13,532 nt of DNA, from contig SHVP01000065.1 of the NCBI GenBank assembly GCA_009694165.1, forward strand, positions 1 to 13,532. Reading direction: 5' to 3'. Under the pieces are notes generated by a model. The model was not told where the DNA came from. It worked only from the letters and a program-made list of their open reading frames with translations, and made no database searches. Shown here one piece after another: positions 5,319-9,194 of the stretch. This DNA is from Alphaproteobacteria bacterium. GTDB taxonomy: Bacteria > Pseudomonadota > Alphaproteobacteria > SHVP01. A program made the translations under genes and the position numbers. Positions within the stretch are counted from its first letter, which is position 1. Every line of letters begins with the position of its first letter.

Positions 5319-6719
5319 ATGGCTTTTAGGGTCCGTGCGCGCGCAAACATCTGCCTAGCGTCGGTTCTTGCCGTTGTCGCCGCGGTGGTTTCATGGGGCG
5401 TCCATGGCGAACCGCGGGCACAAGGTGGAATTCGGCTCCAGCAGATTGCCCAAGCGGCGCAAACGCCAGCGGCGCTCGAACGCGAGCGCGACGAGTTGTT
5501 CGAGCGCACGCTGGCCAATCCGGGCGACCTCGACGTGGCGCTGCGCTACGCTCAAATTTCGGTCGAACTCGACGATCTCGAGGCTGCGGTCGTCGTTTAC
5601 GAGCGGCTGTTGATGATCGACCCCGATCTACCGCGCATCCGCTACGAGTTGGGTTTTCTCTACCACCGCCTCGGTTCGTTCGAACTCGCGCGCGCCTATC
5701 TGACGCGCGCGCTTGCCGGCCGCGACATTCCCATCGATGTGCGCCAGGGTGCGCAGGCGCTCTTGGACGACATCGGTTCGCGCACCCAACCGCATGCGAT
5801 CGCCGGCTCGGTTACCGTCGGTTTCCGCTATCAGACCAACGCCAATGCCGGGCCCGCCTCGGGCACGAGCCGATCGAGCGGCCAAGATACAACTCTGCCC
5901 TCGCGCAATGTGCGGCAGGGCGATTGGAATGCCTTTACCAGCATCGGCGTCCGCCATCGCTACGATTTCGACCGTGCCGACGATGCCGCCATCGACAGCG
6001 TTTTTAATTTGTACGGCGCGCGGCAATTCGTGCACGACGAACTCAATCTATCCAGCACTGAGTTGCGCAGCGGCGTGCGGTTCCGCCCCTTCGAAGCCGA
6101 CCCCGAACTGGTCATCCGCCCCCATCTGCTCGGCGGCGGCAGCATGCTGGAAGACCGGCCCTATACATGGCAAGGCGGTGTCGGGCTCGATCTATCGCGC
6201 CGCATGACCGAGTCTATTTTCGTGGATGCCACCGCCGACTACCGCTATCGCCGTTATTTTAATCACGGTGACAGTCTCACCCGCATCGAGTTGACAGGCT
6301 GGGAAGCGGGCGGCCAGTTGAACGGTCGCTATGTGCTGACACCAAGCCAATCTATCAATGTCGAGGGCGGGTTGCGAAGCACGGATACGCGCCAACGGCA
6401 CAATGACTACACCGATGCCAGCCTGGGCGCCGGCTACACGCTCGCCTTCGATGGCCCCATAGCTCTGATCGACACGCCGTGGACCCTCGTGCTATCGATC
6501 AACCGCAACTGGACCAACTATGTCGGCCCCGACGCCTCGATCGACGCCACGGTCAAGCGCCGAGACCGCCAATGGCAGCTTTCCGGCACGATGAGCGTGC
6601 CGATCACGGCGGAGTGGTCGAGCTATGCGCAGATCACAGCCGCGCGATACACTTCGTCCCTTCCCAACTACGAATACGACAACCTGTCCTCCATCGTCGG
6701 CCTAACGCGCGGATTCTAG
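5319..6719 (+). CDS. TPR plus outer-membrane beta-barrel protein, Slam/DUF560-like
   Basis: This 466-residue protein has a signal peptide (hydrophobic stretch about 10-27, likely cleaved near PRAQ-GG at 35), then helical TPR-like repeats at about 50-155 (LDVALRYAQISVELDDLEAA, then LGFLYHRLGSFELARAYL). From about 163 to the C-terminal Phe it shows amphipathic beta-strands typical of an outer-membrane barrel. The join carries FRYQTNANAGP (169-179), a hallmark I associate with the DUF560/Slam family, in which a periplasmic TPR domain precedes a barrel that exports lipoproteins or soluble cargo (type XI secretion). The final residues GLTRGF* fit recognition by the BAM complex. The ATG at 5319 has GAGG at 5305-5308. 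Only 8 nt separate it from the FecR-domain gene, so that protein is its likely partner or cargo (inference). The alternative is a barrel of unknown role with a TPR plug. Confidence 0.82.
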   Translation: MAFRVRARANICLASVLAVVAAVVSWGVHGEPRAQGGIRLQQIAQAAQTPAALERERDELFERTLANPGDLDVALRYAQISVELDDLEAAVVVYERLLMIDPDLPRIRYELGFLYHRLGSFELARAYLTRALAGRDIPIDVRQGAQALLDDIGSRTQPHAIAGSVTVGFRYQTNANAGPASGTSRSSGQDTTLPSRNVRQGDWNAFTSIGVRHRYDFDRADDAAIDSVFNLYGARQFVHDELNLSSTELRSGVRFRPFEADPELVIRPHLLGGGSMLEDRPYTWQGGVGLDLSRRMTESIFVDATADYRYRRYFNHGDSLTRIELTGWEAGGQLNGRYVLTPSQSINVEGGLRSTDTRQRHNDYTDASLGAGYTLAFDGPIALIDTPWTLVLSINRNWTNYVGPDASIDATVKRRDRQWQLSGTMSVPITAEWSSYAQITAARYTSSLPNYEYDNLSSIVGLTRGF

Positions 6720-6727
6720 AGGCACCC

Positions 6728-8287
6728 ATGCCCAACCAACCCAAACGCCCCCTGCCCGCACTTCTCGTGTCCACCGCGCTCTCGCTTTCCGGCGCGGCTT
6801 GGGCAACGCCGGCAGCGGCCGATCTGCTTCGCGTCGGCGTCGCCGGCGCGGTCAATCCGGCCACGTCCAGCACGCAGCCCGACGGCAATAAGCGGACCCT
6901 TGTGATCGGTAACGACGTCATCTTTAAAGAGCGCATCACGACCGATGCCGGCGGCAAGACGCAATTGCTTTTCCTCGACCGCTCCGCGCTCAGCGTCGGC
7001 CCCAACGCCGAATTGACCATCGACGAATTCGTGTTCGATCCCGCCACCGGGCGCGGCAAGCTGGCCATCAATGCTGCGGTTGGCGTGTTCCGCTTCGTCG
7101 GTGGCAAGTTGAGCAAAGCCGGCGATGTCGAGATCCGGACCCCCTCGGCCGTCACCGGCATTCGCGGCGGCATCGCCATTATCGAAGTCGGGCGCGATGG
7201 CAGCACGACCGCAACGCTGGTCTTCGGCCGCCAGCTCACGGTCACCGCAACCAACGGCACCCAGCAGATGGTTCAAAAACCAGGCTTCTCGGTGACCGTG
7301 ACACCGGCGGCGGCGACGCCCACGGCTCAGGCCCGGCCAACTGCTACGACGATTAACCGACAGCTCGACAACCTCGAAGCCGCACCGCGTCAAGGCGCCA
7401 GCGCATCCTCAACACCCACACAAGCCGCTGCACCTGGAGCTACGGCGGCTCAGCCGGCTGCAGCTAGCGGCAGCCCCACACCCACAGGCGGTCGTTCCAT
7501 CGCTGTAGAAGGTGGTGCCGCCGATCCGGGTGGCGGTCGTTCCGTCGCTGAAGACCGTGGTGCCCCCGATCCGGGTGGCGGTCGTTCCATCGCTGTAGAA
7601 GGTGGTGCCGCCGCTCTGGGTGGCGGTCGTTCCGTCGCTGAAGACCGTGGTGCCCCCGATCCGGGTGGCGGTCGTTCCGTCGCTGAAGACCGTGGTGCCC
7701 CCAATCCGGGTGGCGGTCGTTCCATCGCTGTAGAAGGTGGTGCCGCCGCTCTGGGTGGCACTCAACCCATGACGGCTCAGCCGGCTGCAGCTAGCGGCAG
7801 CCCCACACCCACAGGCGGTCAGCCAGCCGCAACCTCAGCATCGGTCTTCACCACCCAGATCACAGCCGGGGCAATTGAGGCGCGCTTGGCGCCTTCGGCG
7901 ACGGCCGGCGGTACCGGCACAGCATCCGTGACGGTCACCCGACCCGCTTCGACAACAACGGTTACCCGTAGCGTTACCGGCCCGACCACCCTCTCCACGT
8001 CGCCGCTAACGCCAACGGCGGCCACAACCGTTGTAACGGTGCCGCGCTTGCCGCCGCCGCCGCCGATATCCACAATCCGACCGGCAACGACGGCGGTTTC
8101 GCCGCGAACGACGACGACCCCAACCACCACGACCGTGCTGCCGCCGCCGCGAACGACGACGACCCCAACGGGTCCGATCGCACCGGTTTCGCCGCCGCCA
8201 GACACCAGCTCACCGTCGAAGCCAGTATTGCCCGTGCCGACGAAGCCAGGGGAACCTACCCGACCGACGCCGCCAACCGGTCTTTGA
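6728..8287 (+). CDS. Secreted FecR-domain protein with repeat-rich low-complexity tail
   Basis: A 519-residue protein in four parts. A signal peptide ends near AWA-TPAAAD (26-32). A FecR domain spans about 33-185: GNDVIFKERI, LLFLDRSALSVGPNAELTID, then the EIRTPSAVTGIRGG signature at 135-148. Residues 254-343 are six copies of a 15-residue unit starting RSIAVEGG or RSVAEDRG. The tail at about 370-519 is Thr/Pro-rich, with PPPPP and TTTTP runs. No transmembrane anti-sigma segment is seen, so this is not a FecR sigma regulator. It belongs to the secreted or periplasmic FecR-domain proteins, perhaps a surface or carbohydrate-binding protein. The ATG at 6728 lies 8 nt after the barrel gene; the frame is open further upstream but there it overlaps that gene. 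Codons in the repeat part have low G/C at third positions (6 of 15 per unit), unlike the FecR domain (about four in five in a stretch I counted). Confidence 0.85.
   Translation: MPNQPKRPLPALLVSTALSLSGAAWATPAAADLLRVGVAGAVNPATSSTQPDGNKRTLVIGNDVIFKERITTDAGGKTQLLFLDRSALSVGPNAELTIDEFVFDPATGRGKLAINAAVGVFRFVGGKLSKAGDVEIRTPSAVTGIRGGIAIIEVGRDGSTTATLVFGRQLTVTATNGTQQMVQKPGFSVTVTPAAATPTAQARPTATTINRQLDNLEAAPRQGASASSTPTQAAAPGATAAQPAAASGSPTPTGGRSIAVEGGAADPGGGRSVAEDRGAPDPGGGRSIAVEGGAAALGGGRSVAEDRGAPDPGGGRSVAEDRGAPNPGGGRSIAVEGGAAALGGTQPMTAQPAAASGSPTPTGGQPAATSASVFTTQITAGAIEARLAPSATAGGTGTASVTVTRPASTTTVTRSVTGPTTLSTSPLTPTAATTVVTVPRLPPPPPISTIRPATTAVSPRTTTTPTTTTVLPPPRTTTTPTGPIAPVSPPPDTSSPSKPVLPVPTKPGEPTRPTPPTGL
7446..7493 (+). 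repeat. 48-bp direct repeat, left copy
   Basis: This 48-base segment, beginning CGGCTCAGCCGGCTGCAGC, is repeated without mismatch at 7773-7820, 327 bases (109 codons) away. Both copies are in the same reading frame and encode AQPAAASGSPTPTGG. Together they bracket the 45-bp array. Homologous exchange between them would remove or multiply the whole array without a frameshift. Confidence 0.9.
7487..7756 (+). repeat. Six tandem 45-bp repeats within the FecR-domain gene
   Basis: Six head-to-tail 45-base units start at 7487, 7532, 7577, 7622, 7667 and 7712. Unit 2 equals unit 4 and unit 3 equals unit 6. Eight sites vary in all. On the + strand each unit encodes 15 residues of the FecR protein (GGRSIAVEGGAADPG type), and all eight variable sites change the amino acid. 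On the minus strand the same units encode GGTTFYSDGTTATRI or GGTTVFSDGTTATRI. There four of the eight changes are silent third-position changes, and G/C at third positions is 13 of 15. The array therefore looks as if it diversified as coding sequence in the opposite orientation. Confidence 0.95.
7773..7820 (+). repeat. 48-bp direct repeat, right copy
   Basis: Identical to 7446-7493, in the same frame of the FecR-domain gene, starting 17 bases after the last 45-bp unit. It encodes the same Ala/Ser/Pro linker as the left copy. Confidence 0.9.
8101..8169 (+). repeat. 24-bp repeat pair, 45 bases apart, in the Thr/Pro tail
   Basis: The sequence GCCGCGAACGACGACGACC and the five bases after it (24 bases in all) occur at 8101-8124 and again at 8146-8169. 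Both copies encode PRTTTTPT. The offset is 45 bases, the same as the period of the main array, although the sequence is unrelated. It shows that the tail also grew by duplication. Confidence 0.8.
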
Positions 8288-8349
8288 AACGATTTTAATA
8301 TCATCCAATAGTTGCATATAACAACCCTATACGGATGTAACGTAGACAC

Positions 8350-8378
8350 CAGACAAGGTATGTGGATAATGATATACT
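8350..8378 (+). promoter_or_regulatory. Candidate sigma70-type promoter before the broken receiver gene
   Basis: CAGACA (8350-8355) and TATACT (8373-8378) are 17 nt apart, in an AT-rich stretch just after the FecR gene. The -10 has five of six consensus bases and the -35 four. The GTG at 8379 directly abuts the -10, so transcription would begin inside that frame and the GTG could not then be the start codon. The match is only suggestive. Confidence 0.22.
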
Positions 8379-8877
8379 GTGCTTTGCAGGTTCATAAGGC
8401 ACGGTCTGGCTACGACGCCGAGCGCCAATCAGGCACACATCCTCGTCCTTCGACGCGACGATGAGTTAGGCCGCTGGGTCGGTGAGCGGCTGGCGAGCGA
8501 AGGTTATAAGTCGGTCTCGATCGCGACCACGCCGCAAGGCCTGATCGCGCAAGCCCAAGACAATCGCAACGACCTCATCCTGATCGTATCGCATGGCGGC
8601 GCCTAGGAATTGGAGGCGCTGTCGCGGGCAGATAGACCGAGAGTTGTCGTGCTCATCGACGATCCGGCGAAGGGTGAAGCCCTTGCCGACGCGCTTAAAG
8701 CCGATGACGCTTTCATACCGTCGCGTACGCCTCGCGAATTCGCGCGCCGCATCCCGTATGGCCAAAAAACTGGTCGGCAGCGGCATCACGCCGCCCGTCG
8801 ATAGTAGTAGCGCAGGAGCCCGCCCAACCGCTCGCGGCACCGCACGGGTCCCTCGCGCTGCCGATCCGCCGTGCTAA
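8379..8877 (+). pseudogene. Broken receiver-like (response-regulator fold) gene
   Basis: From GTG 8379 the frame encodes a response-regulator-like beginning: HILVLRRDDELGRWVGERL, then DLILIVSHGGA. It meets TAG at 8604-8606. The same frame then continues with good coding character (VVVLIDDPAKGEALADALKA, TPREFARRI). After 8753-8755 (CCC) a one-base shift restores a continuation RMAKKLVGSGITPPVDSSS that ends at TAA 8875-8877. Removing one C would join the two frames. The ancestral protein was about 165 residues with one receiver-like domain. The phosphoacceptor Asp expected after LILI is Val, and the conserved Lys near the end appears to be Arg, so it was probably already a degenerate, non-phosphorylated receiver. 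Sequencing error could explain one lesion but less easily both. No clear ATG start or Shine-Dalgarno remains at the 5' end. Confidence 0.6.
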
Positions 8878-8935: not shown

Positions 8936-9103
8936 ATGAGAGACCTGGTCAAGACCTGGCTTGCAAAGGTTGCGGTGTCCCTGAGCCTGGCCGTGCCGGT
9001 GGTCGCCGGGCCGTTTGAGGATGGGGTTGCCGCACTAAATAGGCAGGACTACGCAACTGCCTTGCGGCTCTTCCGTCCTCTAGCCGAGTTGACAGATTTT
9101 TGA
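8936..9103 (+). pseudogene. Truncated Sel1-repeat protein with signal peptide (or intact 55-aa secreted peptide)
   Basis: An ATG at 8936 with a strong Shine-Dalgarno AGGAGG at 8922-8927 (8-nt spacing) opens a 55-codon frame ending at TGA 9101-9103. It encodes a signal peptide (WLAKVAVSLSLAVPVVAG, cleavage near residue 24). The mature start FEDGVAALNRQDYATALRLF, followed by RPLAE, is the classic first half of a Sel1-like/TPR repeat protein. Family members continue LAEQGDAxAQ and run for several repeats; here the sequence turns into LTDF and stops. The break falls at about 9087, where coding character ends. I read it as a gene cut by insertion or recombination. A functional short secreted peptide is less likely but possible, since start and signal sequence are intact. 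Confidence 0.6.
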
Positions 9104-9194
9104 GTAGGGACAGCAAGAGTTTCGGGCTACTTTGACGGATGAAACGGATCTAGACTGCTGCCATCGACAATTCGGTATCGGGGGGGGGGAAGTC
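9104..9194. other. Junction sequence with G10 tract before the Rieske gene
   Basis: These 91 bases join the truncated Sel1 gene to the oxygenase operon. They hold a TTG-started in-frame extension of the oxygenase frame (from 9132) that has poor coding character. A run of ten G at 9180-9189 ends five bases before the ATG at 9195 and occupies the ribosome-binding position. TTGACA at 9089-9094, just upstream, is a perfect -35 hexamer, but I find no fitting -10. Confidence 0.5.

Follow-up and report, generated by a model that had tools for sequence, protein, structure and literature searches.

The array of six 45-bp units inside the gene of a FecR-domain protein was found to belong, with a probability of about 0.88, to a 279-bp fragment of a 15-residue-repeat protein gene. 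That fragment would have been copied, in inverted orientation, into the FecR gene at its low-complexity linker and would now encode a Gly/Ala/Pro-rich spacer. The homology of the antisense frame to a family of repeat proteins, its orientation, the boundaries of the inserted DNA, the reading frame and a 48-bp duplication at the insert were all observed in the window, that is, the whole stretch of 13,532 nucleotides that was analysed. The features concerned are listed below with their positions in the window.

6728 to 8287, plus strand: host gene for a FecR-domain protein of 519 residues (open reading frame with ATG at 6728, translation, Pfam PF04773).
7446 to 7493, plus strand: left 48-bp direct repeat in the FecR linker; the 45-bp unit begins with the same 7 bp, GGCGGTC, in which this repeat ends.
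7487 to 7756, minus strand: six 45-bp units with the antisense repeat GGTT(FY/VF)SDGTTAT(RI/QS) (Tandem Repeats Finder, translation, unit-matrix scoring).
7494 to 7772, minus strand: inserted 279-bp (93-codon) fragment, in reverse orientation, of a gene for a 15-residue-repeat protein (between exact 48-bp direct repeats; antisense homology).
7757 to 7772, minus strand: 16 bp past the last unit, with the antisense codons H-G-L-S-A in register with N-G-L-S-A of the special first repeat of the family (sequence comparison).
7773 to 7820, plus strand: right 48-bp direct repeat, identical to the left one at 48/48 positions and 327 bp away, a multiple of 3.

The host protein scored 30.8 bits with PF04773 against a curated cut-off of 24, which places it among the FecR-domain proteins. 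It comprises the FecR domain (residues 69-165), a disordered linker and a Pro/Thr-rich tail, and a TPR-containing gene (5319-6719) is located upstream. Classical FecR proteins play a role in sigma/anti-sigma iron signalling; no sigma-factor gene was detected among the window genes scanned with Pfam. In the structure model of the host protein, built from an alignment with 33 of the 47 proteins listed, residues 41-210 reached a confidence of 88-97 per block, as against 39-48 per block in the array region, which lacked secondary structure; the remaining linker and the tail, where the alignment was poor, also gave low confidence. The product of the array in the FecR frame is predicted to be a disordered spacer.

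Other sequences in and next to the host gene were also recorded. The Pro/Thr-rich tail contains another 45-bp repeat at 8094-8195, weaker than the array and with 2.3 copies. Downstream of the gene, one frame of 8385-8850 resembles by eye part of a response-regulator receiver (ILVLRRDDELGRWVGERLASEGYKSVSIATTPQGL...); a stop follows the receiver-like part and similar sequence continues in the same frame, so that it possibly represents a decayed gene. A short signal-bearing stretch at 8940-9110 (MRDLVKTWLAKVAVSLSLAVPVVAGPFEDGVAALNRQDYATALRLFRPLAELTDF, then a stop) looks by eye like the start of a truncated TPR/Sel1-like repeat protein.

Tandem Repeats Finder called the array at 7487-7759 with a period of 45 and 6.1 copies, and a 135-bp period was also called for it. 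The six units are translated in frame in the FecR gene, as the sequence-only reading had stated; the extent given there (7487 to 7756) was right for the units and fell short for the foreign tract, which continues to 7772 and is flanked by the 48-bp direct repeats that the reading had omitted. Units 2 and 4 are identical, as are units 3 and 6, and therefore duplication of larger segments has taken place recently. The antisense 15-mer of the array is GGTTFYSDGTTATRI, and no stops occur in the codon-aligned reverse frame.

The eight variable sites among the units fall at FecR codon positions 1,2,3,1,1,1,2,2, and all of them change the amino acid in the FecR frame (0/8 silent), as opposed to four of eight silent changes in the codon-aligned antisense frame, where the four remaining replacements are F/V, Y/F, R/Q and I/S. 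These counts agree with those put forward from the sequence alone. In 100,000 random placements, at least four silent antisense changes occurred with a probability of 0.11, and jointly with none silent in the FecR frame with a probability of 0.033, so that the silent-site pattern by itself is weak evidence for an origin as antisense coding DNA. The codon-position composition, on the other hand, is strong evidence for coding on the opposite strand. Read in the FecR frame, the array has a GC content of 0.89/0.73/0.43 at the three codon positions; the codon-aligned antisense frame gives 0.43/0.73/0.89, bearing out the earlier remark that the third-position G/C bias fits the opposite strand. The difference between the first and third positions (0.46) was matched by none of 2,866 ninety-codon windows from the other coding stretches of the window, in which the maximum was 0.12.

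Next to this composition stands the relationship of the array to other proteins. A protein search with the antisense repeat had been suggested in the sequence-only reading, which would have been contradicted if no protein anywhere used that repeat; such proteins do exist and form a real family. When the antisense peptide alone was compared with 5.8 billion proteins, one match (P0001; E = 7e-23, 70% identity) was obtained. Within P0001 lies a short protein whose start looks signal-like by eye; its first and last repeats bear Cys, and IGGTTFYSDGTTANQ is an example of its units. The antisense peptide also matched a lipoprotein-like gene at E 2e-19. A profile (A1) made of part of P0001, a Phaeobacter plasmid protein, the gene of one further genome and the window peptide retrieved 174 proteins at E <= 0.001 among 1,947 candidates, 120 of which were listed. 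The consensus with a 15-residue period, G-x-x-T-[FY]-x-S-D-G-T-[TS]-x-x-x-I, is shared by the antisense frame of the array, and the identity between the antisense units of the array and those of the family reached 14/15 residues.

The 120 listed proteins supplied 256 units for a position matrix, on which the family averaged 42.7 bits (sd 5.6, minimum 20.4). The array's six in-register antisense 15-mers scored 47.5, 47.5, 40.0, 40.0, 30.7 and 27.7 bits, the last one reaching three residues into the flank. Because the window peptide was part of the profile used to gather the matrix units, these scores carry some circularity, of which the searches with the antisense peptide alone are free. These 15-mers were the top six of the 19,972 six-frame 15-mers of the window, and the next best scored 0.3. 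Two of the four antisense replacements among the units, Y/F (unit position 6) and R/Q (position 14), affect the two positions at which the family matrix varies most, and each of the four residues ranks among the three commonest at its position. The other two replacements bring in atypical residues: V at unit position 5 (0/256 family units) and S at position 15, which falls outside the pattern by which units were collected.

An origin in place, in which the array would have arisen as linker sequence in the FecR frame and the antisense likeness would be a matter of chance or a by-product of composition, was barely credible in the light of these data. Linkers of such proteins do grow by tandem duplication, as in the FecR relative P0003 with its (GGQQT)n array and internal duplication, and the silent-site pattern taken alone would not decide against it. 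However, none of 20,000 codon-permuted units (best 30.7) and none of 20,000 synonymous recodings of the FecR-frame peptide using the codon usage of the window (best 19.5) reached 47.5 bits. The inverted codon-position GC relative to all 2,866 windows, the match of the antisense peptide to P0001, the unit-matrix scores, the GLSA extension and the 48-bp scar likewise speak against this origin. Inverted capture of antisense coding DNA, the origin favoured in the sequence-only reading, was thus upheld by a family with stand-alone genes, by the rejection of chance in the controls and by visible insertion boundaries.

The members of the donor family are short 15-residue-repeat proteins, probably secreted ones or lipoproteins. 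Among the 120 listed proteins, an N-terminal Cys-pair pattern was present in 77 and a Cys-bearing end pattern in 87. The family is sparse: the window peptide detected it in 5 of 385 genomes from a single class, in some of them at E near 0.001, and the profile in 4 of 398 genomes of the phylum; a further 11 family loci were located in viral contigs. The Phaeobacter gene (WP_199536933.1) lies on a 7.3-kb plasmid, where a replication gene and a recombinase gene flank it. Stand-alone genes, which the earlier reading had proposed to look for in related genomes, exist in other bacteria, plasmids and viral contigs, and none was found in the nearby genomes searched; in the order of the nearest of these genomes (M20 peptidase 78% identical), two genomes were searched and neither matched the repeat profile. 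The donor gene itself was not found in these genomes, and plasmid and phage records gave no match at the DNA level.

The closest stand-alone gene, in viral contig L017, was similar to the array at the DNA level, with 37/45 identical positions to one unit and 36/45 to another, and it was the only locus with at least 33/45 in the 188,697 bases examined on both strands. The GC content at the codon positions of its repeat was 0.37/0.67/0.92, like that of the antisense frame of the array. Modelled with AlphaFold2 from 49 sequences, the L017 protein consisted of a run of short beta strands, two per unit, with a mean pLDDT per block of 83-87 over the repeats and a pTM of 0.47. No sequence match to this protein was found among solved structures, and the fold matches were middling. 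No name or curated family for the 15-residue-repeat proteins was found in the family searches including Pfam, and the donor family is for that reason worth describing.

The members recorded in this work are P0001, P0049-P0167, L017:1914-2282, L001:919-1248 and L012:1492-2214 (minus strand). In addition, the Salmonella plasmid pCFSAN057241 (L002:1836-2555) carries an unannotated 45-bp repeat array that is open on both strands, with a SGTTVPDDYPTAAEV-type repeat on the plus strand and a MVIWDRGPTHLSRCR-type repeat on the minus strand; a Y-family polymerase gene lies on one side of this array and a parB-like gene on the other.

The boundaries of the insert could be read on both sides. On the minus strand, H-G-L-S-A is followed by T-Q-S-G-G-T-T-F, compared with N-G-L-S-A-N-R-I-G-G-T-T-F in P0001 and N-G-L-S-A-S-R-I-G-G-T-T-Y in L017. 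The motif [NDSG]-G-L-S-A was present in 8 of the 120 listed family proteins and [NDSG]-G-[LVMIF]-S-[AGS] in 29. As GLSA is in register with the first repeats of P0001 and L017, the insert, read on the donor strand, starts within a first repeat, and almost all of it is donor-like. The antisense repeat part lacks the Cys-bearing end repeats, and for this reason the array is, judging from its sequence, a fragment of a donor-family gene and not a member gene.

A 48-bp duplication and, at the left junction, the 7-bp GGCGGTC were observed at the insert, which a template switch could have left; the right junction can be judged only with the donor at hand. Seven inverted-repeat pairs of at least 16 bp were detected in 6728-8400, none of which lies at the ends of the insert as transposable-element ends would. 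A replication template switch may have proceeded forward to the GGCGGTC microhomology and then moved to the donor, of which about 280 bases would have been copied before synthesis switched back to the linker, 48 bp upstream. An equivalent repair of staggered breaks could have given the same product. The FecR frame stayed open because the insert consists of whole codons, the 45-bp unit remains in frame at any copy number and the reverse frame is free of stops. What had been a beta repeat would now be translated as a spacer that separates the Pro/Thr-rich tail from the FecR domain, and the antisense strand would be silent.

The relative age of the insertion was estimated from the sequence differences. 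Type A and type B units differ at 5-8 of 45 sites, in contrast to 0 of 48 in the flanking repeats, and the probability of no flank difference under equal rates was 0.0035 to 0.0003. Since the flanks are identical where equal rates predict several differences, most of the A/B divergence probably predates the insertion and thus goes back to the time when this DNA coded on its opposite strand. Gene conversion could have kept the flanks identical, which would weaken this timing argument.

Current coding on both strands, which the sequence-only reading had left as its second option, would require that the following frame work as a repeat protein as well as the FecR linker.

7409 to 7765, minus strand: present-day antisense open reading frame of 118 codons with a TTG start, judged not expressed (open reading frame list; no Cys in the repeat part).

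This frame is open for 118 codons, keeps the family consensus and carries silent changes at four of the eight sites. Nevertheless, its only start is the TTG at 7765, after which it begins SATQSGG; its repeat part contains no Cys, no signal peptide was seen by eye, and beyond the insert it continues into the reversed FecR linker. Conservation of the antisense frame is also expected after a recent capture, and dual coding was consequently regarded as highly improbable.

A broader proposal, that the repeat DNA can act, wherever its codon-aligned reverse complement is open, as an ambidextrous coding module whose phage or plasmid pieces land either way in host genes and yield a beta repeat or a flexible linker, was considered unlikely. 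New linkers would then arise repeatedly by this route, and the FecR case would be an instance that can be seen. Among nine stand-alone loci with recognised repeats (15 loci looked at), three (L001, L019 and L020) had no stop in the codon-aligned antisense frame, and one stop interrupts it in L017. An open reverse frame is therefore no general property of the family, which tells against the proposal; the same counts also weigh against the capture reading of the FecR array itself.

None of the 46 FecR relatives listed in addition to the window's own protein carried the array motif, in a search that scored the 7,995 candidates with the most words in common, and the FecR protein with the array is known as one instance on a single 13,532-base contig. 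In P0003 (492 aa), the closest FecR relative among those listed, the (GGQQT)n array and the large internal duplication occupy the same linker. Because the P0003 linker differs and the array is missing from these relatives, the FecR linker is regarded as a permissive, fast-changing segment.

An assembly artefact, in which repeat DNA of another organism would have been joined to the FecR gene, was regarded as very unlikely. Repeats do confuse assemblers, and the proteins searched held no second copy of this one-contig case; yet the host's own linker and the kept frame are found on both sides of the insert, and a random join would rarely give both. The reverse direction of transfer, in which the FecR linker array came first and the stand-alone repeat genes descended from its antisense strand, has a practically negligible probability. 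Nothing beyond the shared sequence speaks for it, while the family is large and diverse (174 matches), resides on plasmids and viral contigs and has many members with Cys-bearing end repeats, as opposed to an array known in one FecR gene. Capture of a donor fragment in reverse orientation accordingly stays the preferred explanation.

It is difficult to demonstrate that coding sequence derives from the opposite strand of a different gene, as the donor relationship and the scar usually fade. In the window, the donor family, orientation, frame and scar are all readable, which makes it an unusually clear case of the DNA of one protein being reused on the opposite strand. It provides a test case for the gain of segments by antisense overprinting in bacterial genes, with a predicted beta repeat turned into a predicted disordered linker in one step.

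Compared with known systems, the array shares the period, the consensus and the special first repeat GLSA with the short 15-residue-repeat proteins (P0001, P0049, the L017 gene and WP_199536933.1); however, the window copy is a reversed fragment inside another gene, without Cys end repeats or a signal peptide. The host resembles FecR-domain proteins (PF04773) with a low-complexity linker in that its domain scores above the cut-off and P0003-type relatives also have linker repeats, and it differs from the 46 listed relatives in carrying this array. Out-of-frame or antisense remodelling of genes ('overprinting') includes gene families remodelled out of frame, which have reportedly been described for E. 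coli. As in overprinting, a different gene here makes use of a coding piece in a new frame or on the other strand, and the array is homologous to another family off the host frame while the host gene stays open; the window piece differs in being a tandem-repeat array with its scar intact and with a predicted beta repeat turned into a predicted disordered linker. Reverse-orientation DNA that arises or is tolerated within genes is also a theme in reports on short-range template-switch mutations in great ape genomes (PMC7954356) and on coding inverted repeats within mitochondrial genes of Nematomorpha (PMC6649704). Compared with those systems, the window piece stems from the gene of another family and lies in a bacterium.
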